From the NCBI GenBank assembly GCA_016124795.1, contig WGNB01000029.1, positions 1-64,000 of the forward strand: a stretch of DNA of 64,000 bases, in the 5' to 3' direction. A model generated the notes under the pieces. It searched no databases and was not told where the DNA came from. It saw only the letters and a program-made list of their open reading frames with translations. Shown in pieces: positions 43,090 to 62,248 of the stretch. The translations under genes and the position numbers were made by a program. This DNA is from Rhodopseudomonas sp. (GTDB lineage: Bacteria; Pseudomonadota; Alphaproteobacteria; Rhizobiales; Xanthobacteraceae). Positions within the stretch are counted from its first letter, which is position 1, and the number at the start of each line of letters is the position of its first letter.

Positions 43090-43140
43090 TGTCTATCCCT
43101 TTGACGACCGACGCCGGATACAGAGCCGACCGGTCGGAAC

Positions 43141-43704
43141 CTATGCGAATTTCGCGACATCGTCGGCAAGCGCCGATAGATAAGGCTGGATCGCGTCTTT
43201 CGGCGACAGGACCGCATCCGCTTCCGATACCGGCCAATCGATCGCAAGCGCCGGATCGTTCCAGCGCAAACCGCGATCGTGCTGCGGGCTGTAGTAAGAC
43301 GTCACCAGATAGCCGACCTCGGTATCGGCCTCGAGCGTGCAAAAGCCATGCGCGAAACCCTCCGGGATCCAGAGTTGCGCGCCGCTTCGGCTGTTCAATT
43401 CGACGGCGACATGCCGACCGAAGGTCGGCGAAGCCGGCCTGATGTCGACCGCGACATCGAGGATGGCGCCACGCAGGCAACCGATCAATTTGCCCTGAGC
43501 GGCCGGCGGCATCTGGAAATGGAGCCCGCGGATCGTTCCAACATGGCGCGAAAGCGACTGATTGTGCTGAACAAACGCCACGTCGGCGACATTCTTGCGG
43601 AACAGATCGGCGCGAAATACTTCCGAGAAATAGCCCCGATCGTCGACGATCCGGCCGGGCAAGACCAGAACGACATCGGGGATCGCCAGAGCCTCGAATT
43701 TCAC
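43141..43704 (-). CDS. rfbC: dTDP-4-dehydrorhamnose 3,5-epimerase
   Basis: A 187-residue cupin-fold epimerase. 'RGYFSEVFR', 'GTIRGLHFQ' with the catalytic histidine, 'DVAVDIRPASPTFG' and 'GFAHGFCTLE' are typical of RmlC. The start is GTG at 43704 with a strong GGGGAGG eight bases upstream. It lies just after the beta-helix gene (30 bases). Confidence 0.95.
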   Translation of the reverse strand: MKFEALAIPDVVLVLPGRIVDDRGYFSEVFRADLFRKNVADVAFVQHNQSLSRHVGTIRGLHFQMPPAAQGKLIGCLRGAILDVAVDIRPASPTFGRHVAVELNSRSGAQLWIPEGFAHGFCTLEADTEVGYLVTSYYSPQHDRGLRWNDPALAIDWPVSEADAVLSPKDAIQPYLSALADDVAKFA

Positions 43705-43734
43705 GACCGGGCCTCCCCGCCACGCGACATGGCT

Positions 43735-45528: not shown

Positions 45529-45613
45529 GAGCAGCCACTCGCGATAGCAACAACGCCGAGGACGCAACAGTTCACGACCAGCCGCGACGGCCCGATGCGC
45601 GCGACCGGAGACG

Positions 45614-46864
45614 TCAATAGCGCAGCCGCCGAGGCCGCCAGTCGGCCCGCATGACCGATGGCCCGACCGACGTGATTTTCCGGGTCCATAACCGCCCTCG
45701 CCGCCGGTCCGCCAACAGGCAACTGCACATGATCATCAACCAGAAGAGCGGCCAGGAGAAGGCATAAACATTGAAGAACGACACATTGACGGCCGAAATC
45801 AGGAGCAGTGCCGATACGCCGCCGCCACATACAAAATAGAGCACGGCGACAAATCCGATAATGCCGAGAAAGCCAAGATCGTAAAAATAAGCCGCCCCCA
45901 GACTCTTCGGATCGAGCAGCGCCCCTTGCGAACGCAAACTCAACAGGGGAATCGGCGGCATACTGACGGTTGGCGCGTACTCGCGATAATTCGAAACGCC
46001 GATGAAGTAATCCAGCGTGCTGAGGTGATTACCTTCCTTGATCCATATGATCGGGGCGGTACGCGAAAATACCGAAATATCCTCCAGCATCATTTTGCGA
46101 TAATCGACGACCTCGTCACTGCGGAACATGATTGCAGCGGGAAGGATCACAAAAGAACATAGATACATTCCGACGGCGGACACCGTCATCAATGTCCAGC
46201 TTCGCAAACTCATCACGACCGAACAGGCGACAAGCCAGATATAGGAAAAAAACGAGGTGCGCGAATTCACCAGGACCATAATGACAAGAAACAGGTAGAT
46301 GCCATAAGGCCCGGTAAGCGTGCGCTTCTTCTGCACCAGCAACCGATAGGAGGCCGCGGCGATCATCAAGGTGCCCAGATAGGCCGGCTCATTGGCAAAG
46401 CCGGATACGCGCGGCCAAACCAAAATCATGCCGCCCGGCGGATTGTAGTGCCACAGCGACGGATTCCAGGATCGCACCGGGAATATGGCGTCGAATAGTC
46501 CGGTCAAAAGTCCAAACATCTGTATACAGGCAAATGCGACATTACAGATCAGGCCAACCTCGAAGCCGGCAAATATCTCGTCCAGCCGCTTTCTTCTGAG
46601 GCCCGCCGCAGCAGCCGCAACGAAGGCGATATAGACAATATATCGGACAATGGCTTCGACATTGAACACCGCGATGAATTTGATCGCCGCGATCGCGAGA
46701 AAAGCCATGATCAAGAAAGCCGATTTCTCGGGGAAATCGGCGCCATAGATCAATGGCGTAACGAGGATCAAAACCCACAACAGCGATAGATTCGTCCCGA
46801 CGTAGACCTGATTAAAAATCGGAAAAGCAGCGAAAAAGCCAATAAAATTGGCGTAAGAAAACAT
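45614..46864 (-). CDS. Polysaccharide polymerase, Wzy/O-antigen ligase type
   Basis: A 416-residue integral membrane protein with about ten to twelve hydrophobic helices and one large periplasmic loop (about residues 255-320), the layout of Wzy/O-antigen polymerases and ligases. 'PRVSGFANEPAYLGTLMIA' before a helix and 'VNSRTSFFSYIWL' are weak family-like marks. I chose ATG at 46864; a GTG at 46909 would add 15 polar residues. Base composition is AT-richer than flanking rfb genes. It probably links repeat units in the periplasm. Confidence 0.75.
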   Translation of the reverse strand: MFSYANFIGFFAAFPIFNQVYVGTNLSLLWVLILVTPLIYGADFPEKSAFLIMAFLAIAAIKFIAVFNVEAIVRYIVYIAFVAAAAAGLRRKRLDEIFAGFEVGLICNVAFACIQMFGLLTGLFDAIFPVRSWNPSLWHYNPPGGMILVWPRVSGFANEPAYLGTLMIAAASYRLLVQKKRTLTGPYGIYLFLVIMVLVNSRTSFFSYIWLVACSVVMSLRSWTLMTVSAVGMYLCSFVILPAAIMFRSDEVVDYRKMMLEDISVFSRTAPIIWIKEGNHLSTLDYFIGVSNYREYAPTVSMPPIPLLSLRSQGALLDPKSLGAAYFYDLGFLGIIGFVAVLYFVCGGGVSALLLISAVNVSFFNVYAFSWPLFWLMIMCSCLLADRRRGRLWTRKITSVGPSVMRADWRPRRLRY

Positions 46865-47210
46865 TACAACTCGGATGTCATTTCCGAATCTCTTGCCGCC
46901 CGTCAACACTAGATTGTCGTCCTTCGATGCGAATTCGCAGGGCCCGAACCGACTCGGATTGACCCCAGGTCACTAAACTCCGCTCGAGCAACGCAATAGA
47001 TGCCCGCCCTGGAAACCCAGGCAGGCATCGAAAATAAAATCACCATAAATTTCCGTGACGCCGTCAGAAGAATTAATTCACACAAAGACGATTCGTCAAA
47101 CGCCAATCCCCTCTGAAAGCATCAAATTAAATGCTGCCAGCGCCCCTATTTAAACGCCAAGGAATAAATCCATTGCCAATCTCCCAAACCGCGCCCCGCT
47201 CCACAACACG
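46865..47210. other. AT-rich intergenic region without gene
   Basis: A gap of 346 bases between the polymerase and a methyltransferase gene. It is clearly AT-richer than the rfb side, with poly-A tracts such as GAAAATAAAAT near 47030. No frame longer than about 65 codons in it looks coding. It may hold an internal promoter or be scar sequence from exchange of genes in the locus. Confidence 0.45.
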
Positions 47211-47921
47211 CTACGCGGTCGCAACAAATATCTTTTCGCCACGCCACAAGCCGTACTCGGAAACCAACGGCTCGACGGCAGTAAATTCCCGAAGTGAAAA
47301 TCCAACACCTCGAATATCGTCCCGAACCCGACGCCCGAACATTCGAGTATGATCGCTTTGTCCGAAGTGCAATTCAGCCTCGCGCGCGCCGCTGATATTG
47401 GAATTCAGATATGTCTCATCCCAACCTTCAATGATCGGAAACAACAAGAGAGCGATGCCACCCGGCCGGATTATCCGCTTGAGTTCCGCAAGCGCTTTCC
47501 AATGATTCACATGCTCCAATACGTGACTACAAATGGCGACATCCACCGATGAATCCGGGAGATCGATTGCCTCGATATTGAGCGCGACATCGACCGAAGC
47601 CGGATTCAAATCAGTCGTCCGATACGAGCCTGCCATGGGCCGCAAAATCTGCTTGAGAACGGGTTCGGGCGCAAAATGCAGAATTTCTTTCCCAGAGATA
47701 AGATTCTTATGCTGATCAAGCCACAACCCAAACAATCGGTGTCGCTCCAAGGATCCGCATTTTGGACAACTGGCATCGAAGCGTGGCGGCGAGCCGGATG
47801 CCATAAAATACCCGCTGAAGTCGCAGAGATTACAACGTCGCGGGTAAACACCAAACATCGCCTTTGATTGCCTGACAATATAAGGAACCATCCGCAGATA
47901 TGATTTTAGAGGCTGGCGCAT
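47211..47921 (-). CDS. SAM-dependent methyltransferase with zinc-ribbon start
   Basis: A 236-residue class I methyltransferase-like protein. Residues about 30-60 have CNLC and CPKC pairs, a probable zinc ribbon. The SAM-binding region is weak at motif I but 'SVDVAICSHVLEHVNHWKALAELKRIIRPGG' (about 130-160) is a typical methyltransferase segment. Probably methylates a sugar of the repeat unit. ATG 47921; an internal ATG at 47891 also possible. AT-rich like its neighbours. Confidence 0.78.
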   Translation of the reverse strand: MRQPLKSYLRMVPYIVRQSKAMFGVYPRRCNLCDFSGYFMASGSPPRFDASCPKCGSLERHRLFGLWLDQHKNLISGKEILHFAPEPVLKQILRPMAGSYRTTDLNPASVDVALNIEAIDLPDSSVDVAICSHVLEHVNHWKALAELKRIIRPGGIALLLFPIIEGWDETYLNSNISGAREAELHFGQSDHTRMFGRRVRDDIRGVGFSLREFTAVEPLVSEYGLWRGEKIFVATA

Positions 47922-48046
47922 TCAACACTCCATCCAAGGCGACTCTCCCACGTAGCGAGAGTCACGGGAGGCAACCATCATTTATATTGGCTCGAATTCC
48001 GATCACGCCGTCAAGGCTGTCGCTTAAACGTTGCGCAATCCAAAGC

Positions 48047-48901
48047 CTACGGCGAATCAGCCTTGACAACCGAGGAACGAATGAACAAAGGCAGACATTT
48101 CAGGGCCGAGACTACACATACTGCTAGAGACTTAAATTCGCCTCTTCGCAAAGCGCGTTTGGCCATTGAGTAATATTGCCACAACAAAAGCGATGGCCTC
48201 CGCTCAAAAAGGCTCTTTTGCTTTTTTATTATGCATAATCGCGCTGGTAGATCGTTCGCCACTATGCTCGAAATATTGCCAGCTGTTTCATACACGTCGA
48301 CCAGCGGCCGATCTATCAATCCGAAAGAAGTCCTGGCGGCCAATCTTAATACAAGGTCCCAATCCTGAAATCGCGGCAAATCGGGATCAAACATGCCGAT
48401 TTCCTCCAGGAGCGCCTTACGAACCAAAATTGTCTGAGTGCTGACGAAATTTTCCCTCAACAGCGAGGGCAATATATCGCCTTGCCGCAAGGCGATGCTC
48501 TCCGGCGGGATATATTCGGCGCTGCCGTTTCTGTTGAAACGTTTCATCCCCGTGTAAACAACCGCGTCAGCGGCATGCAAATTCATATACTCAATCTGCG
48601 CCTGCAACTTCTCGGGCAGCCAGGCATCGTCGCTGTCCTGAAAGGCGACGAGGTCGGCCCTGGCCGCAACAATGCCGGTGTTCCGCGCGGCAGCGCCGCC
48701 TTTGCGCGCGTCATGGCGCAGATAACGCAGACGGTTGTCGGCGTAACCGGCGATCACATCCCGCGAACCATCGGATGAGGCATCGTCAACCACGATCAAC
48801 TCGAGATCGCGCCAGGTCTGGGCCAGCACGCTATCGATCGCGCGAGCCAACGTGCCGGCGCGGTTATAGGTTGGAATAATGACCGAGACGACAGGCGTCA
48901 T
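48047..48901 (-). CDS. Glycosyltransferase family 2
   Basis: A 284-residue GT-A enzyme: 'VSVIIPTYNRAGTLARAIDSVLAQ' at the N-terminus, 'LIVVDDASSDGS', and the DXD-like 'AFQDSDDAWLPEKL' near residue 90. It transfers a nucleotide-activated sugar to the growing lipid-linked repeat unit in the cytoplasm. The C-terminal half carries no membrane helix of note. Donor and acceptor unknown. Confidence 0.88.
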   Translation of the reverse strand: MTPVVSVIIPTYNRAGTLARAIDSVLAQTWRDLELIVVDDASSDGSRDVIAGYADNRLRYLRHDARKGGAAARNTGIVAARADLVAFQDSDDAWLPEKLQAQIEYMNLHAADAVVYTGMKRFNRNGSAEYIPPESIALRQGDILPSLLRENFVSTQTILVRKALLEEIGMFDPDLPRFQDWDLVLRLAARTSFGLIDRPLVDVYETAGNISSIVANDLPARLCIIKKQKSLFERRPSLLLWQYYSMAKRALRRGEFKSLAVCVVSALKCLPLFIRSSVVKADSP

Positions 48902-49028
48902 CTAGCGTGCTTCACCCAGAACTAAATACATAACCCGCGAATAACCATCAGACGGATCAAATGGGGCACAACGAACCAACATCCGTCGCATCGGCAACAA
49001 AGCGCTGCGATAAATTCCAAGCATCACT

Positions 49029-50450
49029 TCAACGAAAAACAGAATGCCGGATCTCATTTAAAAAATCCCGCATGAAAATAGCCAACAAAACAACATATAA
49101 CGCCGCCCCTACAAGAACCAACAACCCGACCCGTATAGTCGAGGGCAAAGCGTCCCCCAATTCAATATTGGCGAACCTAACCACAAAAGCCATAACAAAC
49201 GCGAAGAATGCCGGAAAGAATAGCCTACGCAAAAGAAGGAATATATTCGACCCAATCAAGTCAAGCGTTACCTGCAAGGAGATAACGGTCACAAGGCCTG
49301 TCGCAAAAAAGTACGCGGCAACCATCCCGATTAGACCGTGTTGCAACCCCAGCCAAAAAGCCAACAACACGATCGACGTATTAGCGACGCCAAGCGTCCT
49401 CAAAACGTCGGCCCTCCCTATCGCCAGCAAAATAATTCCAGTGGTGGATGTTAGCGATTGGAAATATCCCATAGGCGCAATCCAGGCAACAATTTCAGAA
49501 ACAGGCAACCATTTTGCACCGAGGAAGACTACTACAAACGGCTCGCGTAATGCCCATAAACCGAACATCAAGGGCGCTGTAACGACTGAAATGAGCGACA
49601 GTGTTTGAAAATACAGGCGAACGACCCGCTCCAAGTTAGCTTGCTCCCGGCTATACACCGGCAAGAGCGCGCGATTTGTAACTGCGGTCACATTTTGGAG
49701 GGGAAACAACAACATTCTATTCGCAATGCTGTACAAGCCGAGACTATCGGCCCCTAAGACCTTGCCAACGAGCGCGGAATCGACATTTCTCGCGAAGTAA
49801 TTAATGAGGTTGAAAAAAACTAGATTTCCACTGAAAGAAAGGAGACTCTTCAACTCGTCACGACTGAACGCGAATGTCGGACGCCATTTAGAAAAACATA
49901 TAAATTGAATCGATGATACTACTGCATTAACGATGGCTTGAATTGCGAAACTATAAACGCCATAGCCATTGTAAGCTGCCAGTACACCGCTTGAAAGGCC
50001 TAAAAGGCCCGATGAAATTTCAACTGCTGCAACTTTTCTAAATTCGCCATTTCTCTCCAAAAAAGCTAGCTGGACGGCTCCGCCGGCCATAACAGGAAAA
50101 ACCAGCGCAAGCATCATCAAGACGGGCGTCAATCGCACGGAGTCAAAAAACCAACCCGCGGCTGGAGCCGAAATCGCGACACCTACCCCAACTAAGACAC
50201 CAAAAGCGATATTCAACCAGAAAACCGTATCGAGAACTACGCCCGTCAGCTTTGGGTTCTGTATCAACGCAGTCGATAGCCCCATATCCCGAAATAAGGT
50301 CCCAAAATTTATAATAACAGCAGCCATCGCCATGACGCCGTAATCGGATGGATCCAATAACCGTGAATAAGCGAGAATTGACAAAAACTGGAAACAAACG
50401 CGCGCTATCTGACCAACGCCAACCCAACGCACATTAGATGCTGCTGACAT
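49029..50450 (-). CDS. Lipopolysaccharide/exopolysaccharide flippase (Wzx)
   Basis: A 473-residue membrane protein with about twelve to fourteen helices, of the polysaccharide transport (MVF/MATE-like, WzxC) family. 'SILAYSRLLDPSDYGVMAMA' at the N-terminus and 'FSGNLVFFNLINYFARNVDSALVGKVLGADSLGLYSIANRM' (about 205-245) are characteristic. It would move the lipid-linked repeat unit across the inner membrane. Strongly AT-rich for this window. Confidence 0.88.
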   Translation of the reverse strand: MSAASNVRWVGVGQIARVCFQFLSILAYSRLLDPSDYGVMAMAAVIINFGTLFRDMGLSTALIQNPKLTGVVLDTVFWLNIAFGVLVGVGVAISAPAAGWFFDSVRLTPVLMMLALVFPVMAGGAVQLAFLERNGEFRKVAAVEISSGLLGLSSGVLAAYNGYGVYSFAIQAIVNAVVSSIQFICFSKWRPTFAFSRDELKSLLSFSGNLVFFNLINYFARNVDSALVGKVLGADSLGLYSIANRMLLFPLQNVTAVTNRALLPVYSREQANLERVVRLYFQTLSLISVVTAPLMFGLWALREPFVVVFLGAKWLPVSEIVAWIAPMGYFQSLTSTTGIILLAIGRADVLRTLGVANTSIVLLAFWLGLQHGLIGMVAAYFFATGLVTVISLQVTLDLIGSNIFLLLRRLFFPAFFAFVMAFVVRFANIELGDALPSTIRVGLLVLVGAALYVVLLAIFMRDFLNEIRHSVFR

Positions 50451-50622
50451 ATAGAACTAACTACGAACAATCTTCAGAGGAATGCGAAGAACTAATCCAT
50501 TCAAGGAAATGAATAGATAATCTCTCGGGCTATCAAACATACTTGCGTGACCTCTTCGGCCACTCCCCGCAGAAAATCTTCGTCACTTTACAGCCTATCC
50601 GGAAAAATCAGATGAGACATAG

Positions 50623-51363
50623 TCAGCCGGAACGACTGTTCCTTACGCGAAAAAAGTAAAAATCGGCCCAAGAGGTTTCGTCCGGATCGCAAATATCGAA
50701 AGGAAATCGATTCTCGATCTTGCAGAGAAACTCCCATGCTGGAGCATAGGTTTCAATCCACCTGGTAAAGCGACGATGCCTAATATGAGGAACATGACCT
50801 GGCAGATCGACGTTACTGCTATATATGCAAATAAAGCGCTCTGCCGATTGGACCAAGCGATGCATATACGCGTTATAAACATCGTCTTCCACGAGATGGT
50901 ATAGAACATCTAACGACATCGACAACTCGGCAGACACTGATTTTTCTTCAGCGCTCCCCGAGACAAAGAACGCCTTGGTCTTATCCGATGAGAAATCTCG
51001 GCGGCAGCGCTTCACCGCTTCGACCGAAACATCGATCCCCGTATATTTTTTATACCTCGCAAGATTTAATTGAGCGCCATCGCCACAACCAAACTCGACG
51101 ACACTTTCGATGTTATTGTCATCCACGAACTGATTTATAATTTCCGATTTGAATAGCGCCAGGCGGCCATACGAGCCTGGGCCGGATGTACCGCCATGAC
51201 GATAGCGCGCATCCCAATAAGACGACGAAGTCTTAAAATTCTCTGGCTTACGTACGAGCCGCAAAAGAAGGCGGATCATTGCCCCCAATATTGGGACAGA
51301 GACCAAACGCCGCTTAACGGGCCGTAGGGCCTCTATAAGACGAGATACAGATTTTGAGGGCAT
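50623..51363 (-). CDS. Class I SAM-dependent methyltransferase
   Basis: A 246-residue methyltransferase. SAM motif I is 'SVVEFGCGDGAQLNL' near residue 90; 'MSLDVLYHLVEDDVYNAYMHRL' near 155 follows the usual fold order. The ATG at 51363 is preferred because GGTGA lies just upstream; an ATG at 51375 overlaps the upstream glycosyltransferase and has no such site. Likely decorates a sugar of the polysaccharide. 172 bases without a gene separate it from the flippase start. Confidence 0.8.
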   Translation of the reverse strand: MPSKSVSRLIEALRPVKRRLVSVPILGAMIRLLLRLVRKPENFKTSSSYWDARYRHGGTSGPGSYGRLALFKSEIINQFVDDNNIESVVEFGCGDGAQLNLARYKKYTGIDVSVEAVKRCRRDFSSDKTKAFFVSGSAEEKSVSAELSMSLDVLYHLVEDDVYNAYMHRLVQSAERFICIYSSNVDLPGHVPHIRHRRFTRWIETYAPAWEFLCKIENRFPFDICDPDETSWADFYFFRVRNSRSG

Positions 51364-51364
51364 A

Positions 51365-52519
51365 TCAGTCACCATCTACAATTTTATCGTACAGGCTTTC
51401 CAAAAGCCTCGTGCAGTCGCGTATATCGAACCGACCTTTCACGAACTCTCGCGCTTCGTAGGCCATTGTTTGATTCAATTCGGGGTTTGAGAGAACCCTG
51501 ATCAAGCATTCGGATAAGGCCTTCGAATTTCGTTCTTCAAATTTGAAGCCTGTCACGCCATTGATAATTCCTTCGTCGGCGCCCCCGAGCGCCGAAGTGA
51601 CTACCGGCACACCCGCAGCCTGTGCCTCGAGCAACACAAGACCAAATCCTTCTGCGTCACCATTTTCCGCCCTGACACTTGGCAAACAAAAAACGCGTGA
51701 ACTGCCCAGTTCCGCCTTAATCTGCGCGTGAGGCATGCCCCCCATAAATCTCGCACAAACCCCAAGCTCTCGCGATTTCTGCTCTAGGCTATACCTCAAC
51801 GGGCCATCACCAATGACGGTCAACTCGGCGTTCGGAATTACTCGCTGAACGCTCTCCATCGCGCTTATGAGATACTCGCAGCCCTTCTTTTCGACCAATC
51901 TTCCTACAAAGAGAACACGCAGGGGACGATTTGAAAGCAGGATTTCGCCTGGTCGAAAGTTTTCGGAATCAACTCCAATATATTTTGTCGCGATCTTTTC
52001 AGGAGGAATTCCATAAGAAATGGCCTTGTCCCGGATAGCATCCGAAACGGCAATAAAATGACGATTCTCACGCTGCGCTAACTGTAGCAATTGACGCGGA
52101 TATGCGCGCATAAAAGGCGCATGCTCTTTCCGCTCCCACCAATCGCGACGGATGTTCACGTCGTATCCATGGAGCGTGGTCACCATTGGTATCCCGAGAG
52201 ACACTGCGATCGGTTCTGCAGCAACGGCATCCATGCCGAAATGCGCGTGCAATAGGGCTGGCGCTTCACGTTTAAAAGCATTGATTCCCGGAGGACGGCC
52301 GATACGCCATCCGATCTTGCACAGCAAGTGAGCGAAACTTTTGCTTCGGGGAGCGTCCAGCAACCGATAGTCTAGTCCATCAAGCGGCAATTGATCGATA
52401 TATCGCCTGCCGACAAGAGTTCCTTTCCAAGAACTATAGGCTAGCATCTGCTCTTTAATGAATGTTTCCGAATATGGAAGGAGGTCGGATCTGAAAACAA
52501 GAACAGTACGCAAGGACAA
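51365..52519 (-). CDS. Glycosyltransferase family 4
   Basis: A 384-residue GT-B enzyme: 'YSETFIKEQML', 'ALLHAHFG', 'LHGYDVNIRRDWW', and the C-terminal nucleotide-sugar motif 'SVRAENGDAEGFGLVLLEAQAAG' with the E-x7-E pattern. Retaining transferase that adds one sugar to the repeat unit. Start is TTG at 52519 with AGGA upstream; no ATG near the domain start fits. The gene is AT-rich; the sequence turns GC-rich just above 52560. Confidence 0.87.
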   Translation of the reverse strand: MSLRTVLVFRSDLLPYSETFIKEQMLAYSSWKGTLVGRRYIDQLPLDGLDYRLLDAPRSKSFAHLLCKIGWRIGRPPGINAFKREAPALLHAHFGMDAVAAEPIAVSLGIPMVTTLHGYDVNIRRDWWERKEHAPFMRAYPRQLLQLAQRENRHFIAVSDAIRDKAISYGIPPEKIATKYIGVDSENFRPGEILLSNRPLRVLFVGRLVEKKGCEYLISAMESVQRVIPNAELTVIGDGPLRYSLEQKSRELGVCARFMGGMPHAQIKAELGSSRVFCLPSVRAENGDAEGFGLVLLEAQAAGVPVVTSALGGADEGIINGVTGFKFEERNSKALSECLIRVLSNPELNQTMAYEAREFVKGRFDIRDCTRLLESLYDKIVDGD

Positions 52520-52649
52520 GTTCCTATTAAGCTCTACGTTCTAGTATGCGCGCATGTAATTCTTGCCAGACGCATCGCCGGCAGATTTCCACCGGATCGC
52601 CGAGATCGTGACCGAAAAGCCTGGGCGACATATCAACGCTCCTGAGACA

Positions 52650-53696
52650 TCACGCGGCAACGCCGGCCGCGCGCGCCAAACGCGGGCCGGTCTTTCGCCG
52701 CCGCAACGAGAAATCGGCGATCGCACCGAGAACGACCGCGGCGCCGGCCATGTCGCCGCGCGCCGCCATCTTCAGCGATTTCAGCCCGGTATAGATCCAG
52801 GCGAAGGGCAACAAGGCGTTATGATATCGCCGCGTGAAGCGCAGAAAATTGACATTGTAATAATACAGCGCCGTGTCGCTCATCCGCCCCCGCGAGTTCG
52901 TGCCGATCGAGCCGCCCTCCTTGTGATAGACAAGCGAGTCCCGGGCCCAGACCTGCCGATAGCGGCCGGCGTTGCGGCGGCTCCAATCGAGCTCCTCGAA
53001 ATACAGGAAATAGTCTTCGTTCATCAGGCCGACGGTCTGCAGGAAGCCGCGCGACACCAGCATCGAGGCGCCGACGATATAATCCAGCGCACCCTCGATC
53101 TCCGATGACGCGGGCAGTTCCGACGCCGGCCGGCCCATCGCCAGATTGCGCCCCCGGCCGATGAAACGGTTATAGGTGCCGCCAAGGCTCTGGATACGCG
53201 ACGGCGTATCGTAATAGAGCAAGGTCGAGCCGCAGATGCCGATGCGCGGGTCGGCTTGCGCCCGCTCGCACAGCCGCGCCAGCGCCTGCGGGTCGACCAC
53301 CGTGTCGTTGTTCAGGAGCCAGCACCAGCCGCAATCCGGATCGCCCAGCGCCGCCCGGATGCCGACATTGTTGCCGGCGGCAAAGCCGAGATTGTCGGCG
53401 CAGCGGATGACCGTCACCAGCGGCGCCGTCGCCGGATCGAAGCGGGCGGCGGACGAGAGCACCTGAAAGGTTGGCGACCTGACGCGCCCGGCCGGCAGCG
53501 CCGCCCAGGGCGCACCGCGCCGGTCGGCTTCGCTCCGGCCGCCGGCCCAATCGGCCAGCTTCGCCACGCCCTCGTCCCGGCTTTCGTTGTCGACGACGAT
53601 GACACGGAATTCCGGCGCCGCGATCCGCAACAGCGATTCAAGACACTCGATGGTGTCGGCGTAACCGCGCCAGTTGACGAGAATGATGTAGACCAT
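52650..53696 (-). CDS. Glycosyltransferase family 2 (rhamnosyltransferase-like)
   Basis: A 348-residue GT-A enzyme. 'VYIILVNWRGYADTIECLESLL' start, 'VIVVDNESRD', 'NLGFAAGNNVGIRAAL', 'LLNNDTVVDP' and 'NEDYFLYFEELDWSRR' are the marks of the RfbF/WbbL-like rhamnosyltransferases. With a dTDP-rhamnose pathway encoded nearby, rhamnose is the likely donor. ATG 53696 preferred over the GTG at 53723. An extra insertion around residues 58-95 (Arg/Ala/Pro-rich) is unusual. Confidence 0.86.
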   Translation of the reverse strand: MVYIILVNWRGYADTIECLESLLRIAAPEFRVIVVDNESRDEGVAKLADWAGGRSEADRRGAPWAALPAGRVRSPTFQVLSSAARFDPATAPLVTVIRCADNLGFAAGNNVGIRAALGDPDCGWCWLLNNDTVVDPQALARLCERAQADPRIGICGSTLLYYDTPSRIQSLGGTYNRFIGRGRNLAMGRPASELPASSEIEGALDYIVGASMLVSRGFLQTVGLMNEDYFLYFEELDWSRRNAGRYRQVWARDSLVYHKEGGSIGTNSRGRMSDTALYYYNVNFLRFTRRYHNALLPFAWIYTGLKSLKMAARGDMAGAAVVLGAIADFSLRRRKTGPRLARAAGVAA

Positions 53697-53786
53697 GGCG
53701 CGCCCGTCAGTCCCGTCTTGCACGGCAAGGCCGGCGCGATCCGCACGCCCGCCGGCGATATTGATGACGGGATCGGCCCGGTGTCG

Positions 53787-54569
53787 TCATCGGTGCCTGA
53801 GGTACTTCGCTTTCAGGAAAGCCCCGAGCAGCGCCGCCGACCAGGCACCGATATGGCCGTCGGCCCTGAAACGCCGCACCGTCGCGAGATGCGCGTCGAG
53901 GAGCGCCTGGACATTGCCGGAAAGCCCCCGGCCCTTGATATGGCCCTCGTCGCGGACCGACAGGAACGCCGTCGACTTCCAGAGCGGATAGCCGCGAAAC
54001 ACCAGTTCGCCCCACAGCCGGTAATCCTCGGACCGGCGAATGGTCTCGTCGAAACGGACCGGGATGCGCCCCTTGCGGAACACCACGGTTGTCGGCGCGA
54101 ACTGGCTGGTGGCGATGTAGACGTCAAGCCGGTTCATGCGATACAGCGGCGCGCCGCGATGCAGACGGTCATTGATCGTCGGCGCCCGGCTCCCGGCGAC
54201 AATATTGTTGTGACCCAGAAAGTCGATCGCCTTGTCGCGCATGAGCGTGACGGCGTGTTCGAGCTTTTCCGGCAGCCAGTAATCGTCGGAATCGAGAAAC
54301 GCCACGAATTCGCCGCCGGCCGCGTCGATGCCACGGTTGCGCGCCACCGCCGGCCCGCCATTCGACGGCAGATCGAGGACGCGGACATTGGCAAAGCCTC
54401 CGGCGATCCGCTGCGCTTCGGCCCGTTGCGCCGCCGCCGAGGCATCGTTGACGACGATGACCTCGAAGGCCGGCAGCGTCTGCTGCGCGACCGACCGCAG
54501 GGCCCGCGCCAGCGTATCGGCGGCGTTGAAGAACGGTATGACGACCGAAACCGTTCCGTCACCCGCCAC
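53787..54569 (-). CDS. Glycosyltransferase family 2
   Basis: A 260-residue GT-A enzyme: 'VSVVIPFFNAADTLARALRSVAQQTLP', 'VIVVNDASA', and 'FVAFLDSDDYWLPEKLEHA' with the metal-binding aspartates at about 92-94. GTG start at 54569, since no ATG lies at the domain start. High GC, like genes to its right. Donor sugar unknown. Confidence 0.87.
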   Translation of the reverse strand: MAGDGTVSVVIPFFNAADTLARALRSVAQQTLPAFEVIVVNDASAAAQRAEAQRIAGGFANVRVLDLPSNGGPAVARNRGIDAAGGEFVAFLDSDDYWLPEKLEHAVTLMRDKAIDFLGHNNIVAGSRAPTINDRLHRGAPLYRMNRLDVYIATSQFAPTTVVFRKGRIPVRFDETIRRSEDYRLWGELVFRGYPLWKSTAFLSVRDEGHIKGRGLSGNVQALLDAHLATVRRFRADGHIGAWSAALLGAFLKAKYLRHR

Positions 54570-54652
54570 GGGACCCGCCGCGATAAGGTTGGGGCATGAT
54601 CGCGAAATCCGCCTTGCCGTCTCGCGGCCGGCGGGCGCATGCGGCGACGATG

Positions 54653-55948
54653 TCAGGGTACGGCATGCGCCGGTCCGCCCTTCGCCAGCGTCGTCAGGAT
54701 CTCCTCGAACCGCGCCATGGCCGCGTCGCGGGACAGCTCGTTCGCCAGCGCCAGCCGCCGTTCGCTGCCGCCATCCGGGTCATCCACCAGATGGGCGCGA
54801 ATGGACGCGACAAGGGCATCCGGGTCCTCAGGCGTGATGACCGCCGCGGCGCCGTCGAGAAAACGCCCCAGTTCGGTGTCCTTTTCGGCCATCACGATGA
54901 TCGGCCGTCCGCTGGCCAGCATGCCGCCGAGCTTCGAGGGAAGTACAAGATCGCCAGCCGCGGCAAGTTGCGGCAAAACATGCAGGTCGCATAACCCGAG
55001 AAAATCGCCGAGCCGCTCATAAGGCTGCAGCGGCAAGAACCGGACATTGCCGAGCCCCGCCGCCGCCGCGACAAGCGACATCCTGGATGGCCCCTCACCG
55101 GCAATGACGAAGGTCACGTTCGACAGATCCTTAAGCCGGCGGGCCGCCTCGATCACAACGTCGAGCCCCTGCTTGGGCCCGAGATTGCCGGAATACAAAA
55201 CGACGAAGGCGTCATCGGCGAGGCCGAGTTCCGCGCGATAGCTCCGCGACCGAGCCGCGGGCTTGATATGCGCGAGGTCGACCCAGTTCCGCACGATCGA
55301 CACCCGCCCGCCCGCGATACCCTTGCATTCGATCTGTTCCGCCATCCGGCCCGAAATCGTGACAAAATGATCAACGCCGCGCCAACATAGCCGCTCGAAC
55401 AGACTCGCCAGCGACATCAGCCAGCGCTTCGGCGATACGTGGCCGACAGCAAAAGCCGCGTCAATCTCGAAGTCCTGAACATGCAGCAGCGTGCGGGCGC
55501 CCACCAGTTTCGCCGCCAGCAGGGCGACAGGCGCGACGAACAAGGTCGGCTCGACGCAGAAGACGACCGCAGGCCGCATCCGCAGGATGCGCCAGAACGC
55601 CACTGGCGCCGACGTGATGGCGAAGGTCAAGGGCGCCAGCAGCCGCCAGATTCCGCCCATGCCGGATTTCAGCAATAGCGGACAACGACTCAACGTCACG
55701 CCGCCGATCGACCCGGTGCTGTAACGATTGCGGAAACTATCGAAGACTTTCCAGCCGGGATAATGCGGCGCCGCCGTCACCACCTCGACGGCCACGCCGC
55801 GCCCGGCCAGATAGCTGCCGATATCCCCGGTATAACGGCCGACGCCGGTCGGCTCCGGGCTGTAATTCATGCAATAGAAAAACACCCGCAGCGAAAGCCC
55901 GTCGCCCTTCAACACCGACGTCAGCGGATAAGACCCGCTCAACGCCAT
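54653..55948 (-). CDS. Glycosyltransferase family 4, WcaI-like
   Basis: A 431-residue GT-B enzyme. The N-terminal 'YCMNYSPEPTGVGRYTGDIGSYLAGRGVAVEVVTAAPHYPGW' resembles WcaI of the colanic acid locus, and the C-terminal half has 'LYSGNLGPKQGLDVVIEAARRL' and a 'LPSKLGGMLASGRPII' nucleotide-binding segment. In Enterobacteria wcaI also lies close after fcl. Here it starts at the last base of the fcl stop codon. It probably transfers fucose or another sugar. Confidence 0.87.
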   Translation of the reverse strand: MALSGSYPLTSVLKGDGLSLRVFFYCMNYSPEPTGVGRYTGDIGSYLAGRGVAVEVVTAAPHYPGWKVFDSFRNRYSTGSIGGVTLSRCPLLLKSGMGGIWRLLAPLTFAITSAPVAFWRILRMRPAVVFCVEPTLFVAPVALLAAKLVGARTLLHVQDFEIDAAFAVGHVSPKRWLMSLASLFERLCWRGVDHFVTISGRMAEQIECKGIAGGRVSIVRNWVDLAHIKPAARSRSYRAELGLADDAFVVLYSGNLGPKQGLDVVIEAARRLKDLSNVTFVIAGEGPSRMSLVAAAAGLGNVRFLPLQPYERLGDFLGLCDLHVLPQLAAAGDLVLPSKLGGMLASGRPIIVMAEKDTELGRFLDGAAAVITPEDPDALVASIRAHLVDDPDGGSERRLALANELSRDAAMARFEEILTTLAKGGPAHAVP

Positions 55949-56955
55949 CAGATCGCCGTCGGCGCGAATGATCGAGCTCCGAATTTCAGCGCGACGTCCC
56001 CCGCCCTAGCCTGCCAATGGGACAGATACCAGCGATACGTGCTGGCCAAACCGTCTTTCAACGAGATCGACGGCGTCCAGCCCAAGGCCCTGATGCGGTC
56101 AGCGCTCATCAGCTTGCGTGGCGTACCGTCATGCTTCGATAGGTCGTGGACAATCCGGCCGGACAAACCAACCGTCTCGCAGATCAACTTGGTCAGGTCC
56201 AGAATGGTCAGATCGCTACCGCTGCCGACATTGACATGCCCATCCCCGGAATAGACTTGCATCAGAAAGACGCAGGCATCAGCGCAATCGTCGACATGCA
56301 GAAATTCCCGCCGCGGCGCGCCAGTGCCCCAAACGATAATTTCGTCGTCGCCGCGCGACTTTGCTTCATGAGCCTTGCGCAACAAAGCCGGAATGACGTG
56401 GCTGGTATCGAGATCGAAATTGTCGCCGGGGCCATATAGATTGGTCGGCATCGCCGAGATGAAATCGCTGCCATATTGCTTGCGATACGCCTGACAAAGC
56501 TTAATGCCTGCAATCTTGGCAACGGCGTACCATTCATTGGTCGGTTCGAGCGGCCCCGTCAACAAAGCGTCTTCCGGAATCGGCTGCGGCGCGAATTTCG
56601 GATAGATGCAGCTCGAGCCCAAAAACAACAGCTTCGACACCTCCGCGCGGTGAGCGGCCTCAATGACATTGGTCTCGATCACGAGGTTGTCGTAGAGGAA
56701 GTCGACTGGATAGGTTTCGTTGGCCAAGATGCCGCCAGCCCGCGCCGCGGCCAGAAAGATCGCGTCAGGCCTCGCGTCGCGGATCCACGCACGCGTTGCC
56801 GCCTGATCCTTCAGATCGACGTCCCTCCGGTCAACCGTCAGGATTTCACAGTTCTCAAGGCCAAGCCGACGTACCAGCGCGGAGCCGACCATACCCTTAT
56901 GCCCGGCGACCCAGACTCGCTTGCCCGCGAGCGGGAAGATCACGTCATTCGGCAT
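55948..56955 (-). CDS. fcl: GDP-L-fucose synthase
   Basis: A 335-residue extended SDR catalysing epimerisation and reduction of GDP-4-keto-6-deoxymannose to GDP-L-fucose. '[18 protein letters not shown]' binds NADP; '[18 protein letters not shown]' and '[20 protein letters not shown]' carry the catalytic Ser, Tyr, Lys. It overlaps gmd by 11 bases. Confidence 0.95.
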
Positions 56956-58021
56956 TATGCCGCTTTTCGCTGGCGACGGTTTTCAGGTCGGCGCGGACCA
57001 TCTCCGCACAGAGAGCCCGGGCCGACGTTTCATGCTTCCAGCCAAGACGGGTCTGGGCTTTTGTCGGATCGCCCAGCAGCAATTCAACTTCCGTCGGACG
57101 AAAATACCGCTTATCGACTTCGACCAGGCAGCGCCGGGTGCCAACCTGATAACCCTTCTCATCGGCGCCAACGCCTTCCCACACCAGCTTGATACCGACT
57201 TCCTCAAAGGCCCAGTCGACAAATTCGCGAACCGTGGTGGTCTTGCCTGTCGCCAGAACAAAATCGTCCGGCTCGTCCTGCTGCAACATCATCCACATGC
57301 CGCGCACATATTCGCGCGCATGTCCCCAATCACGCTTGGCGTCGAGGTTGCCAAGAAAAAGCTTATCCTGAAATCCGAGATGGATGGCCGCGGCCGCCCG
57401 CGTGATCTTGCGGGTAACGAAGGTCTCACCGCGCAACGGGCTTTCGTGATTGAACAGAATGCCGTTCGAGGCATGAATGCCGTAGGCTTCGCGATAGTTG
57501 ACGACGATCCAGTAGGCATAGATCTTGGCTGCGGCATAAGGACTGCGCGGATAAAACGGCGTCGTCTCGCTCTGCGGGGTCTCCTGCACTTTGCCGTAAA
57601 GTTCGGATGTCGAGGCCTGATAGAAGCGGGTCTTTTTTTCGAGTCCGAGAATCCGAATGGCTTCGAGCAGCCGCAGCGTGCCGATAGCGTCGGCGTTGGC
57701 GGTGTATTCGGCGGTTTCGAAAGAGACCTGCACATGGCTCTGGGCGGCAAGATTGTAGATCTCGTCCGGCTGCGTCTGCTGAATAATGCGGATCAGGTTG
57801 GTCGAATCCGTCATATCACCATAATGCAAGACAAAACGCAGATTTTCTTCGTGCGGGTCCTGATAAAGGTGCTCGACCCGACCGGTATTGAACGACGACG
57901 AACGCCGTTTGATACCATGAACGGTGTAACCCTTCTCCAGCAGGAACTCGGCGAGGTAAGCGCCATCCTGACCCGTCGCGCCGGTGATCAACGCGACTTT
58001 CCCGTTACTCTTGATCGTCAT
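56945..58021 (-). CDS. gmd: GDP-mannose 4,6-dehydratase
   Basis: A 358-residue extended SDR. '[24 protein letters not shown]', '[15 protein letters not shown]', and '[20 protein letters not shown]' with catalytic Tyr and Lys are Gmd hallmarks. First step of GDP-fucose synthesis. The ATG at 58021 follows GGGATGGA. It is the first gene after the ops-type leader at 58068-58152, in front of a minus-strand gene series running to rfbA. Confidence 0.96.
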
Positions 58022-58067
58022 TCCATCCCAGCCTTGGACACCACATATGATTCGAGATCGATTTCAA

Positions 58068-58079
58068 CACGCTACCGCC
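58068..58079 (-). promoter_or_regulatory. ops element (JUMPstart core) in gmd leader
   Basis: On the minus strand this reads GGCGGTAGCGTG, identical to the 12-base ops core of enterobacterial JUMPstart leaders that recruits the NusG paralogue RfaH to pausing RNA polymerase and lets it transcribe long polysaccharide operons. It lies 46 bases upstream of the gmd ATG, in leader position, directly after a hairpin. No RfaH gene is in the window. Identity of the 12-mer is seen directly; function is inferred. Confidence 0.7.
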
Positions 58080-58083
58080 ATCA

Positions 58084-58152
58084 GGGTGAAACGATGTTTC
58101 GCCCGGCCACCAGCTTTGCTTTGCGGCGTGAATTTATAGCCTCTCACGCCGC
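58084..58152 (-). promoter_or_regulatory. Two leader hairpins ahead of ops
   Basis: Hairpin one: GCGGCGTGA (58123-58131) with TCACGCCGC (58144-58152), perfect 9 bp. Hairpin two: GGGTGAAAC (58084-58092) with GTTTCGCCC (58096-58104), nine pairs with one wobble and a 3-base loop. In the gmd transcript they come in the order one, two, then four bases later the ops core. They could favour pausing, or end transcription read through from the wzc side. Confidence 0.5.
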
Positions 58153-58707
58153 CCTTGATCGCACCCCGCACGGCGAAGCGACAGCGAACCAGTCCCCAGC
58201 GCGCACCGGGTCCAGCGAAGAACCTTGCCTTACATTTTTAGTGGGTACGGAGAACCGAGGCTCGCTTTGGCCAAATCGGATAATATCCGCCGCGTCATTT
58301 ATGTCGCGGCCTTGGCCACCGTCGATGCCTTGCGATGTTAATACACCAAGATCAGCGAGCATGGGGGCGCCCCTGAAGGTCAGCGATCCGATGACTTTGC
58401 ATGGCAGCAAACCCAACCCCGCCTTCACTGTCTCCCCGGCCTTTGGTCCGACCCGAAACACCAACGGTCGCACCTGTCTGCACGTCACCGGCGCATGTCA
58501 GGCCGCCGCGTCCTAACGCGCCGACCGATACCCTGCTGTTATCGCAGCCGGCAAACCCATGCTTTTAACTCACGGATATACAATCATGCTGCGCCGCAAC
58601 ATTCAAGCCTTATCAAACAATCAGGCTTAACGGCCCCAGACAAAACGGCCAGGTACGGCATAACAAACAAGTGACGGAACCCGACCAGAGTCCGGCTCGC
58701 AGGCTTG
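58153..58707. other. Long intergenic region upstream of gmd
   Basis: The remainder of a 686-base gap between gmd and the 168-residue protein gene. It holds adjacent palindromes TTTGGCCAAA (58266-58275) and CGGATA-A-TATCCG (58277-58289), candidates for a regulator site in the promoter of the polysaccharide operon. A 114-codon minus-strand frame (58144-58488) covers them, but I do not recognise it and do not call it. AT-rich patches at 58560-58630 are promoter-like. Confidence 0.4.
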
Positions 58708-59205: not shown

Positions 59206-59978
59206 GGCCGCCACTCCGGACGGACGACGCCGGGAACCTCAACGTCGAGCCCCCGGCGATAGACGTAACGCGCAAAGGTTTCACGGCGGTCCTGATCGAC
59301 ACCGGCAAGTCCCGCCATCAGTTCCTTGCGTACCGGCCAGCCGGGTCCGCTCAGGATCTCGTAGGCCTCGTTCATGTAATTCGAGTCGACCAGCCGGGCG
59401 AACTCGCCGACCACGTCACTGGCGAGCACAGCTGGCAGCGTCGGATACAACGCCATCGCGAAACGGTTGCGCTTGATCGCGATCCAGCCCTCGTTCGGGC
59501 CGAGCCGATAGGACATGTCAAGAAAGGCCAGACGCGACCGCTTGAATCCGTCCTTGGTATTCTCGAGCCAAAACAGGACGGTCCAAAGAAACGGATCGGC
59601 CGGCGCATTGGCGAGCGACGCGCGGACCAAGGCGTCAGTCTCGCCCATCAGCCGATCCAGCCCCGCGGTTTCACCACGCGCTATTGCCGCCTCGAGCAGC
59701 CGCAGATCGACCACCGCGGCGGCGGCGAGCACCGACGGCCGCGTCCACTTGCCCTCACCCAGATCGCCAATCGCATCCTTGAACGGCGTCAGGACATCCG
59801 GCCGGTAAGGGTCGCCAGCGATGATGTGCCGCTTGATCTCGGAAAACGGCGCCTGCCGCCAGAAAATCGGAAACGTATAAAACCCCCAGGCCATCGCCGC
59901 AACGGCTAAGCCAAACACCGCAAAACGCAGCGCCACCGGCGCCTCGCTCGACGACCGATACGCCGCTACGGCCGTCAT
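59196..59978 (-). CDS. Membrane-anchored protein of unknown function
   Basis: A 260-residue protein with one N-terminal membrane helix (about residues 18-38) and a helical remainder rich in Ala, Leu and Arg ('LLEAAIARGETAGLDRLMGETDALVRASLANAPADPFLW'), like tetratricopeptide-type or similar all-alpha domains. Its ATG overlaps the stop of the tyrosine kinase gene by four bases, which suggests that the two proteins work together. Not recognised otherwise. Confidence 0.7.
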   Translation of the reverse strand: MTAVAAYRSSSEAPVALRFAVFGLAVAAMAWGFYTFPIFWRQAPFSEIKRHIIAGDPYRPDVLTPFKDAIGDLGEGKWTRPSVLAAAAVVDLRLLEAAIARGETAGLDRLMGETDALVRASLANAPADPFLWTVLFWLENTKDGFKRSRLAFLDMSYRLGPNEGWIAIKRNRFAMALYPTLPAVLASDVVGEFARLVDSNYMNEAYEILSGPGWPVRKELMAGLAGVDQDRRETFARYVYRRGLDVEVPGVVRPEWRPWH

Positions 59979-62248
59979 TCCGTATATCCGTAACGGGCGT
60001 AATATTTATTGTGATAGTAATTGCTGTGATAGCCCTCGTAACGACCGAGGACTTCCGTATCGGCCTTGTTCAGGACCACGCCGATCATATGGTCATAAAC
60101 GCCGGACGCCACCGACAGATTGTGCTCGACCACGTCGATCTTGGTGCGGCCCCACTCGATCACATAAACATAGGAATCGATAATGTTGGTGGTCGAGCGC
60201 ACATCGACGACGGGCGCCAATGGCGGCAGATCGACGATCACGTAGTCATAGACCGTCCGCAGGTGATCGAACAAGCTCTTCATCGCCGCCGACGCGATCA
60301 CCTCGTTGGTATGCATCATCTTCGGCGTGGCGCCACTCGGCAGGAATGACAGGTTGGTCGCCCGGTCCGCCCAGACCGCATCCGTCAGCGTGACCTTGCC
60401 GGCGATGACGTCGATCAGCCCGCGCGCCTCCGGCGCAAGCGATCGCGACAGCGACGGGTTCCGCAGATCGAGGTCCATCAGCAAAACCCGGCCGCCGGCG
60501 TGAGCGATCAACTCGGCCAGATTGGCCGACACCGTCGACTTGCCCTCATTCGGCAGCGACGACGTGATACCGATGATCCGGCTCTCCTTGACCACGCCGT
60601 TCAGATCGATCGCCACCTTCAACGAACGCACGGCCTCGGTAAAACGCGAAAACGGCGCATCCACCACATGCCAGAACAGCTTCTCCGCACGCCTTATATT
60701 GCGCGAATTGGGCGGCTCGACACGCTTGCGCTCCTCTTCGCCCGGCGGCTTGACGGATGACACCTTGACCACCGGCAGAATTGCCAGGCAATGCGTGCGC
60801 AACTGTGTCTCGATCTGGCGGCTGGTTCGGAACACATTGTCGGACAATTCGCGGAACAGCGCGATGCCGAGACTTAGCATCAGACCACCGGCAATGGTCA
60901 GGGCGAGCACGACGATCGTCTTGGGCTTGCTCTTGCTCAAAGGCCGAGACGCAGGACTGATCAGGCGCGCCTCGGTAATTGGAAAGGATTGCTGCTGGGT
61001 GGCCTGCATATAAGCTTGCAGGAAGTTATCGTACATCGCCTGGTACGTCTGCGCACTACTGTCGAGCTCACGCAATTGCACCTGCGCCTGATTGGTCAAC
61101 TGGTTTTCCGAGACCACGTTCGCGAGGCTGTTCTTGATGCTGTGTTCGCGCGTCAGGGCGATATCGTAATCGCTCTTGTAAGCCTGCTGAATACGCTCAA
61201 GTTCGCCGGCGATATTCCGGCGAATTTCTTCCATCTGGCTGCGCAGGCGAATGACGGCAAGATGGTTCGGACCGTAACGGCTCGCGAACTCCGCCGCCTT
61301 GGCGGCGATATCGACATATTGGCCACGCAGCTTGATGATGGTGTCATTTTTCAACGCATCCGTGACCGAAGCATCGGGAATGTCCTGCTTCATGATCTCG
61401 TTGATGCGATCGAGCCGCGCCTTGGCCTCGGCGGTCGCGGCGCGCTGCATGATGAGCTGGCTGTTGACTTCCGCCAGCTGCTGCTCGGTCATCAGACGAC
61501 CGCCGGTATCGACAATATTGTTCTTCTGCTTGAAGGCCACGACCGCACGCTGGGCCGCCGTTGCCTGAGTGCGCAGCTCCTTGATGCGATCCTGCAACCA
61601 GATTGAGGCGCGCTTGGTCGACTGATACTTTGCTTCAAGCTGATCGACGATATAGGCGTCGGCGATCGCGTTCGCGATACGCGCGGCCTTTTCGGCGTTG
61701 ACCGATGTGAACTCAATATCCATCACATAGGTCAGGCCAACGCGCTTGATGTCGCGTTGCTTCTCGAAGCGGGCCAGCGCACGCCGCGTCAGTTCGAATT
61801 CGGAGGCCGAATGCTCGGGCCCCGAAAACAGACTTGTTACCGCGCCGAAGACGGCGCCGATCAGACCGCCGCCGGAGCCGACGAATTCCGGATCGTCGGT
61901 CAGGTGCAGGTCCTTGATCACCGACAGACTGATGTTTTCGGATTTCAGGATTTCGACCTGGGTTTCGGTCATCGCCGGGTCGGCCGCCAGATCGCCGAGC
62001 GACGACTGCTGCTGGAACAGCTGGACCTTATGGGTGTCGATCACCATCCGCGCGGTAGCCGAGAACTTTGGCGTCGCGGTAAAAAGGTAGATCATCCCCA
62101 AAGCCGTCGTGCAGGCAATAACAAGGAGAATGATCGGAAACTGCCGGCGAATGATATTGATATAGACTGAGAGATCCTGCGGTGGCGGCGTATCGTCGAA
62201 CTCCGACTCCCTGCCGGGCGCGATCGATTGTTTGTTGATCTCCAGCAT
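59975..62248 (-). CDS. Polysaccharide co-polymerase/tyrosine autokinase (Wzc/ExoP-like)
   Basis: A 757-residue inner-membrane protein controlling chain length and export. N-terminal Wzz domain with helix about 34-56 ('FPIILLVIACTTALGMIYLF'), a long periplasmic coiled-coil (about 190-420), a second helix near 445-470, then a BY-kinase domain: Walker A around Asn567 (PNEGKST), Walker A' 'VLLMDLDLRNP' (about 587-597), Walker B 'YVIVDLPP'. The C-terminus has an eight-tyrosine cluster (737-755), the autophosphorylation tail. All parts of a fused Wzc are present. Confidence 0.93.
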   Translation of the reverse strand: MLEINKQSIAPGRESEFDDTPPPQDLSVYINIIRRQFPIILLVIACTTALGMIYLFTATPKFSATARMVIDTHKVQLFQQQSSLGDLAADPAMTETQVEILKSENISLSVIKDLHLTDDPEFVGSGGGLIGAVFGAVTSLFSGPEHSASEFELTRRALARFEKQRDIKRVGLTYVMDIEFTSVNAEKAARIANAIADAYIVDQLEAKYQSTKRASIWLQDRIKELRTQATAAQRAVVAFKQKNNIVDTGGRLMTEQQLAEVNSQLIMQRAATAEAKARLDRINEIMKQDIPDASVTDALKNDTIIKLRGQYVDIAAKAAEFASRYGPNHLAVIRLRSQMEEIRRNIAGELERIQQAYKSDYDIALTREHSIKNSLANVVSENQLTNQAQVQLRELDSSAQTYQAMYDNFLQAYMQATQQQSFPITEARLISPASRPLSKSKPKTIVVLALTIAGGLMLSLGIALFRELSDNVFRTSRQIETQLRTHCLAILPVVKVSSVKPPGEEERKRVEPPNSRNIRRAEKLFWHVVDAPFSRFTEAVRSLKVAIDLNGVVKESRIIGITSSLPNEGKSTVSANLAELIAHAGGRVLLMDLDLRNPSLSRSLAPEARGLIDVIAGKVTLTDAVWADRATNLSFLPSGATPKMMHTNEVIASAAMKSLFDHLRTVYDYVIVDLPPLAPVVDVRSTTNIIDSYVYVIEWGRTKIDVVEHNLSVASGVYDHMIGVVLNKADTEVLGRYEGYHSNYYHNKYYARYGYTE

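Follow-up and report, generated by a model that had tools for sequence, protein, structure and literature searches.

The gmd locus and its leader

The window, meaning the whole stretch of 64,000 nt analysed here, carries on its minus strand a gene for GDP-mannose 4,6-dehydratase, gmd, with a hairpin and an exact copy of the ops sequence in its leader. The features of the locus are as follows:

58068..58079, minus strand: ops 12-mer GGCGGTAGCGTG, exact match
58084..58104, minus strand: hairpin GGGCGAAAC-ATC-GTTTCACCC, 8 pairs and one mismatch (from the sequence and folds)
58065..58117, minus strand: the whole hairpin-ops element, as matched by the covariance model R2 (29.9 bits)
56945..58021, minus strand: gmd, GDP-mannose 4,6-dehydratase, the first gene behind the element (PF16363, GDP_Man_Dehyd, 521 bits)
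55948..56955, minus strand: epimerase/dehydratase gene, fcl-like (PF01370)
42031..55948, minus strand: the remaining same-strand run (from Pfam and ORFs)
58022..58707, minus strand: 686-base stretch without a scored gene, from the upstream ORF to gmd, containing the element (from ORF scoring)
59975..62248, minus strand: Wzc-type chain-length/tyrosine kinase gene, upstream (PF02706, PF13807, AAA_31)

The scored same-strand genes from gmd to position 42031 span approximately 16 kb, somewhat less than the 18 kb of polysaccharide genes noted in the initial annotation, and are mostly devoted to glycan synthesis. The fcl-like epimerase/dehydratase gene is followed by the run at 42031..55948, where Pfam matches identify glycosyltransferases, methyltransferases and a Wzx-type flippase, as well as a beta-helix protein and a second sugar dehydratase, next to an ORF without a Pfam match. 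Upstream of the leader, two ORFs without Pfam matches and the Wzc-type gene lie on the same strand, and the promoter-like site found within the 686-base stretch, at 58307-58280, is weak.

The ops core had been described as perfect and as situated at leader distance from the first gene, and both statements hold: the 12-mer at 58068-58079 on the minus strand is exact in 12 of 12 bases and lies 46 nt from the gmd start codon at 58021. All bases with a role in RfaH recruitment (C3, G4, G5, T6, A7 and G8) are present; changes at these positions weaken or abolish the recruitment, according to excerpts of PMC5995543. The 12-mer follows the hairpin (58104-58084) at a distance of 4 nt, in agreement with the original description, while the stem given there as nine pairs consists of eight standard pairs and one C·A mismatch, closed by a 3-nt loop. 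The fold of the entire gmd leader is no better than that of shuffled sequences (z 0.07). Two minor features adjoin the element: a second stem of 10 pairs at window positions 58123-58152, just upstream and with no T run behind it, and an imperfect palindrome, TTGAAATCGATCTCGAA, noticed by eye at 58051-58067 directly behind the 12-mer, which may be an operator or have arisen by chance.

The 12-mer and the composite hairpin-ops element

By itself, GGCGGTAGCGTG is not beyond chance. The window holds a single exact copy (0.03 expected; 3 of 100 shuffles contain one), and the whole genome holds two, the second of which appears by eye to lie antisense within a phage-type gene. The 12-mer is not enriched in the source genome or its relatives either: over 60 genomes (the source and 59 relatives) it occurs at 32 places, compared with 107 for a reversed-pattern control. 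It is present in 102 of 385 alphaproteobacterial genomes, the source among them. The weight placed on the 12-mer alone in the initial annotation is not supported. Classification was possible for 30 of the 32 places, with 21 located inside coding-like frames; for four of the nine others a crude caller identified the next same-strand gene, and among those four only the gmd of the window is a recognisable glycan gene. The chance-level counts, the many copies in coding-like frames and the 24 other gmd leaders, none of which has GGCGGTAGCGTG within one mismatch, are all in line with a chance match without function before gmd. A chance match was favoured at first, and this reading was dropped once three class-level 12-mers proved to be located near RfaH-like genes and to have a similar hairpin.

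The three exact copies (in genomes G527, G620 and G511 of the class set described below) share their strand with an RfaH-like gene no more than 10 kb away, and each is preceded by a hairpin whose last bases, CACCC, lie 4-5 nt ahead of the 12-mer, as in the window. In the sequence that follows the RfaH-like gene, read for as many as 300 bases at 53 loci, that of the source included, TTCACCC..TGCGGTAGC appears repeatedly, with nothing in many loci, and in relatives TCACCC-N4-GGCGGTAGCGTG with up to two mismatches is found at several places just behind RfaH-like genes. It is this composite of a hairpin, TCACCC, about 4 nt and GCGGTAGC, recurring across genomes, that exceeds chance. Two covariance models were built, R1 from eight elements and R2 from 32, with the source genome contributing to neither; their E-values are rough. 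With R2 and stricter filters, the whole 5.1-Mb genome gives three matches at E<=0.1, here designated by contig:

C8:7250-7301: between the RfaH-like gene and neuB (R2 E 5.8e-12)
C49:58065-58117: the gmd leader (R2 29.9 bits, E 1.7e-5; R1 28.5 bits)
C18:28442-28494: before the wzy-wzc genes (R2 E 1.2e-3)

Glycan genes, as identified by Pfam, follow all three elements, namely neuB, gmd and wzy-wzc. Between the matched end of the RfaH-like gene and the C8 element there are 62 nt. The neuB ORF, as called mechanically, opens at 7222, ahead of the element, but its NeuB domain is not reached until residue 60, and an ATG farther on, near 7315 and behind the element, would fit as the neuB start. Downstream of the C18 element are a Wzy_C gene, the mechanical ORF start of which overlaps the element, and a Wzz/tyrosine-kinase gene, with polysaccharide-export and beta-barrel genes upstream. 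The gmd element ranks second of the three by score and its outer stem pairs are broken; as an R2 match in the intergenic leader (the 686-base gap) of glycan genes, it falls within the class as defined. The simpler pattern TCACCC-N4-GGCGGTAGCGTG, again with up to two mismatches, occurs in the source genome in the gmd leader, behind the C8 paralogue, at C18:28445 and at C66:28969, and the last of these does not reach E 0.1 with R2. Measured against shuffled sequences, hairpin stability gives a z of -3.51 at C8, and of -1.06 and -0.43 at gmd and C18, respectively, neither of the latter being beyond shuffles.

In the alignment of the 32 elements (A3), which was fitted to the structure and hence leans towards it, 83.9% of the cells are paired, compared with 37-50% when slid, and the covariation score of 0.262, against 0.152 for shuffled alignments, is reached by none of 500 shuffles. 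The count of pairs changed on both sides is not above shuffles (373 of 500), and the only hairpin that RNAalifold predicts from A3 has two pairs and lies within the ops core. On these counts, pairing gives the stem good support and covariation gives it moderate support. The core positions 2-9 read GCGG[T/C]AGC in 32 of 32 elements, a conservation that is partly built in because some members were gathered by patterns demanding CGGTAGC; the first base is T in 24 elements, and in 27 the stem base lies 0-2 nt from ops position 1. Such a distance fits a pause hairpin: with the polymerase paused at ops position 11, about 10-12 nt would separate the hairpin from the RNA end, a spacing at which pause hairpins act. 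Among 18 element loci, three of the source genome and 15 of others, there is no match to an Rfam family at its cut-off.

An RfaH-like paralogue in the source genome

Three NusG-domain proteins are encoded in the source genome. First, the housekeeping NusG is found on contig C57 next to an rplK-like gene (PF02357, 107.7 bits). Next, a second, more distant NusG-like protein of 225 aa is encoded at C57:42206-42547 (42.2 bits), in what by eye appears to be a phage-like region. Finally, a 167-aa protein encoded at C8:6703-7206 (PF02357, 77.8 bits) is distinct from the housekeeping NusG and resembles RfaH, scoring 124.7 bits with TIGR01955 (RfaH) and 62.3 with the nusG model; its best solved relative is the RfaH in the PDB (1.9e-13). 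The curated TIGR01955 cut-off of 144.5 bits is missed, as it is in all 385 alphaproteobacterial genomes, the best of which reaches 141.8 bits, and the protein is also below the cut-offs for UpxY (78.8 of 100 bits) and LoaP (48.7 of 125 bits). The gene overlaps that of a 212-aa MarR_EPS-matching protein (61.1 bits, cut-off 88) and precedes neuB, and the gmd locus on C49 is at least about 42 kb away on another contig. The NusG-paralogue system postulated in the initial annotation did not fall for want of a paralogue, and it gains support from this RfaH-like protein together with the recovery, by a model free of source sequences, of the gmd leader and two more sites.

The side chains K10, H20, R23 and R73, by which E. 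coli RfaH contacts ops according to excerpts of PMC5995543, correspond to Q, H, R and V in the C8 paralogue, so that two of the four are kept. Of E48, I93 and F130, listed as autoinhibition residues in the accessible part of PMC7593976, only I93 is retained, the counterparts being V, I and I. The C-terminal domain is predicted as a beta-barrel in one AlphaFold2 run with 28 sequences, with a pLDDT of 62-72 in the domain and a mean of 80.1.

Co-occurrence of the element with RfaH-like genes

The class set comprises 385 alphaproteobacterial genomes, the source included, in which proteins were counted as RfaH-like from 86 bits upwards, a line that we set at a gap in the list. The element is present at E<=1e-5 in 49 genomes, 15 of which supplied training sequences, and the element counts in the class are lower bounds because stricter search filters were used. 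An RfaH-like gene is encoded in 46 of the 49 element-positive genomes and in 41 of the 336 element-negative ones; with the training genomes and the source removed, 30 of 33 element-positive genomes have it. Among the held-out genomes, 30 of the 71 with an RfaH-like gene have the element, compared with 3 of the 298 without (odds ratio 72). The correspondence is incomplete in both directions: no RfaH-like gene reaches 86 bits in three element-positive genomes, and no element reaches E<=1e-5 in 41 of the 87 RfaH-like-positive ones. Nearly half of the elements at this E-value (24 of 50, 13 of them in held-out genomes) follow an RfaH-like gene on the same strand, at 29-118 nt from its matched end. 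Of 36 genomes of the genus, 21 have the paralogue (E<1e-10), and the element (E<1e-5) occurs in 14 of these and in none of the other 15, an association that is not independent because 13 of the 14 element genomes gave training sequences. A scan of the genomes of 84,980 species for TCACCC-N3-5-GGCGGTAGCGTG yielded 98 stretches, 38 of which reach 24.5 bits, the line that we set for an element. An RfaH-like gene lies in the same stretch in 27 of these 38 and in 3 of the other 60; one of the 38 (L248) is probably a training locus. Element and RfaH-like gene share a stretch in, for instance, Rhodopseudomonas sp. AAP120 (L275) and Magnetospirillum fulvum (L311). The label is Alphaproteobacteria for 26 of the 38, and for the other 12 it is Gamma-, Beta-, Delta- or Zetaproteobacteria, Desulfobulbaceae, Deferribacteres or nothing closer.

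A chance match before gmd is very improbable in the light of these numbers, as any match at E<=1e-5 is so rare in held-out genomes without an RfaH-like gene, the source-blind R2 recovers the gmd composite at an E of 1.7e-5, rough as this value is, and the two further matches in the source genome likewise precede glycan genes. The counts also bear on the possibility that the element works through its RNA hairpin, as a LoaP-type antiterminator, a pause or an attenuator, without being read on the non-template strand by an RfaH-like protein. The stem pairs and partly covaries, its base adjoins the ops core at 0-2 nt in 27 of 32 elements, and the C8 paralogue has lost the ops-contact residues K10 and R73; however, the core, which contains the bases required by E. 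coli RfaH, is present in 32 of 32 elements, partly by selection, and the usual partner of the element is an RfaH-like gene. On balance, a mechanism based on the hairpin only appears unlikely.

Leaders of other gmd genes

Across the 60 genomes, the gmd most similar to that of the window is 83% identical and comes from another family; within the genus the highest identity is 73%. A close orthologue of the window gmd leader was not found in the 60 genomes, so the comparison of orthologous leaders is a weak test here; conservation of the gmd leader was not seen within the genus. R2 was applied to 51 of 55 gmd loci, with four omitted as repeats of the same places, and among the 50 loci other than that of the window the element is present in one (L135, from another family) and absent in 49. 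The gene order at L135 is RfaH-like, element, gmd; the locus is in the R2 training set, and R1, which was built without it, also finds its element (32.5 bits). Conservation in other gmd leaders is thus not seen for the 12-mer, absent within one mismatch from all 24 of those compared, and for the composite it is limited to a single other locus. With the element at one of 50 loci, gmd may be a target but is not a usual one.

The distance of gmd from its counterparts in the genus and elsewhere, as well as the decayed outer stem of its element, would also be expected of a relic that was brought in with an acquired glycan cluster and is now unused. Such a history is highly unlikely, however, as the ops core is intact in 12 of 12 bases and the genome also has an RfaH-like gene with an intact element of its own.

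A proposed model for loading at the gmd leader

Most likely, the element in the gmd leader serves the C8 paralogue as an ops-type site, at which the protein acts in trans on gmd, given the restricted set of elements, their co-occurrence with RfaH-like genes and their position behind such genes. Building on the observed sequences, the set of three sites, the co-occurrence and position relative to RfaH-like genes and the pairing with some covariation in relatives, the reading favoured here, with a probability of roughly three in four, is that of a composite loading site which is read by the RfaH-like paralogue and suppresses polarity over the gmd operon. The leader would act as a composite antitermination-loading site, with a nascent-strand hairpin followed by the ops-type sequence. 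RNA polymerase would pause at the ops core, probably with the help of the hairpin, and the C8 paralogue, presumably rather than another factor, would load via the non-template GCGGTAGC and then travel with the polymerase across the long gmd glycan operon with polarity suppressed. The same protein would serve the neuB operon in cis, with gmd and the wzy-wzc genes as its targets in trans. Counted against this explanation are the loss of K10 and R73, the broken outer stem at gmd and the 49 of 50 other gmd loci that have no element.

Comparison with known systems

The arrangement shares with the enterobacterial ops/JUMPstart elements and RfaH the identical GGCGGTAGCGTG, the position in a leader, a long glycan operon and an RfaH-like protein. 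The hairpin, in contrast, is of another sequence, T is the first base in 24 of 32 elements, two E. coli K-12 leaders (L205) score just 13.4 and 11.5 bits with R2, and the paralogue gene, unlike that of the enterobacterial RfaH, adjoins one of its presumed targets. The JUMPstart family RF01707 scores 16.5 bits in the window, where the Rfam cut-off is 35, and the JUMPstart identity originally proposed for the gmd-leader element is accordingly not supported. PMC2864571 notes a conserved stem-loop among JUMPstart elements, which its table places under gammaproteobacteria.

Among the cis-encoded NusG paralogues (UpxY, TaA and LoaP), UpxY is similar in that its gene is near the head of a glycan operon (PMC7593976, in part), as is that of the C8 paralogue. 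The C8 protein, however, scores lower with UpxY and LoaP (78.8 and 48.7 bits) than with RfaH (124.7 bits), and an ops-type signal follows its gene. For paralogues encoded beside their targets, the mode of recruitment is stated to be unknown in the excerpts of PMC7593976, and the element represents a candidate recruitment signal for such proteins. According to the same excerpts, 18% of rfaH genes are in Alphaproteobacteria, where RfaH homologues were thus already known. 'Monomorphic' RfaH homologues, as described in the available portion of a 2026 preprint (PMC13015549), are located beside long operons and are argued to load in cis without ops. The C8 paralogue resembles these in its position near a long operon, the loss of E48 (V here) and possibly, given the AlphaFold2 prediction with a pLDDT of 62-72 there, a beta-barrel C-terminal domain; it differs in having an ops-type element beside its gene and two more elsewhere in the genome. 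The finding casts doubt on whether RfaH homologues that have lost autoinhibition can dispense with ops. In a literature search thin on subscription journals and with supplements outside its reach, neither ops elements in Alphaproteobacteria nor the pairing of an alphaproteobacterial RfaH homologue with a hairpin-ops element was found.

The look-alike signal behind RfaH-like genes suggests an unrecognised branch of RfaH control. The element is present in at least 49 of 385 sampled alphaproteobacterial genomes (E<=1e-5) and, going by their labels, in a few other lineages. It is a proposition with about as much for it as against it that Alphaproteobacteria have an ops-RfaH branch of their own, consisting of a module of a MarR_EPS-type regulator, a probably non-autoinhibited RfaH-like protein and the hairpin-ops composite, in which a nascent-RNA hairpin at the position expected of a pause hairpin is joined to an ops sequence. 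Loading would be in cis at the operon of the module itself and in trans at a small number of further operons, as at gmd; specificity would then come from the composite and not from autoinhibition or the K10/R73 contacts. With R2, RfaH-like regulons of surface glycans can be predicted by sequence search, and the source genome offers three candidate sites.

Additional observations

In 15 of 17 loci (C8 and 16 relatives), a palindrome, GTTCA-N5-TGAAC, is found ahead of the MarR_EPS gene, often twice. By eye, it is positioned in the spacer of a TTGAC-type promoter; it occurs at one place in the whole genome and is probably a MarR operator. The palindrome is missing from the gmd leader, even when one mismatch is allowed, and a MarR operator common to the paralogue locus and the gmd leader is thereby out. 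The very short leaders ahead of the MarR genes in the genus, inspected by eye, contain no ops, the element being located behind the paralogue. In genome G620 (L207, near 12889) GTTCA-N5-TGAAC is also found before a second glycan operon with a hairpin-ops element.

In three genomes of the class set (G490, G782 and G611; loci L153, L168 and L393) element and RfaH-like gene are on opposite strands, 855-885 nt apart, and the element may therefore serve a divergent operon. Six of the scanned stretches belong to Natronospirillum operosum (L231, L259, L266, L277, L291 and L306) and share CACCCGG..-GGCGGTAGCGTG with a similar upstream part, possibly representing a multi-operon ops regulon or a repeat family.
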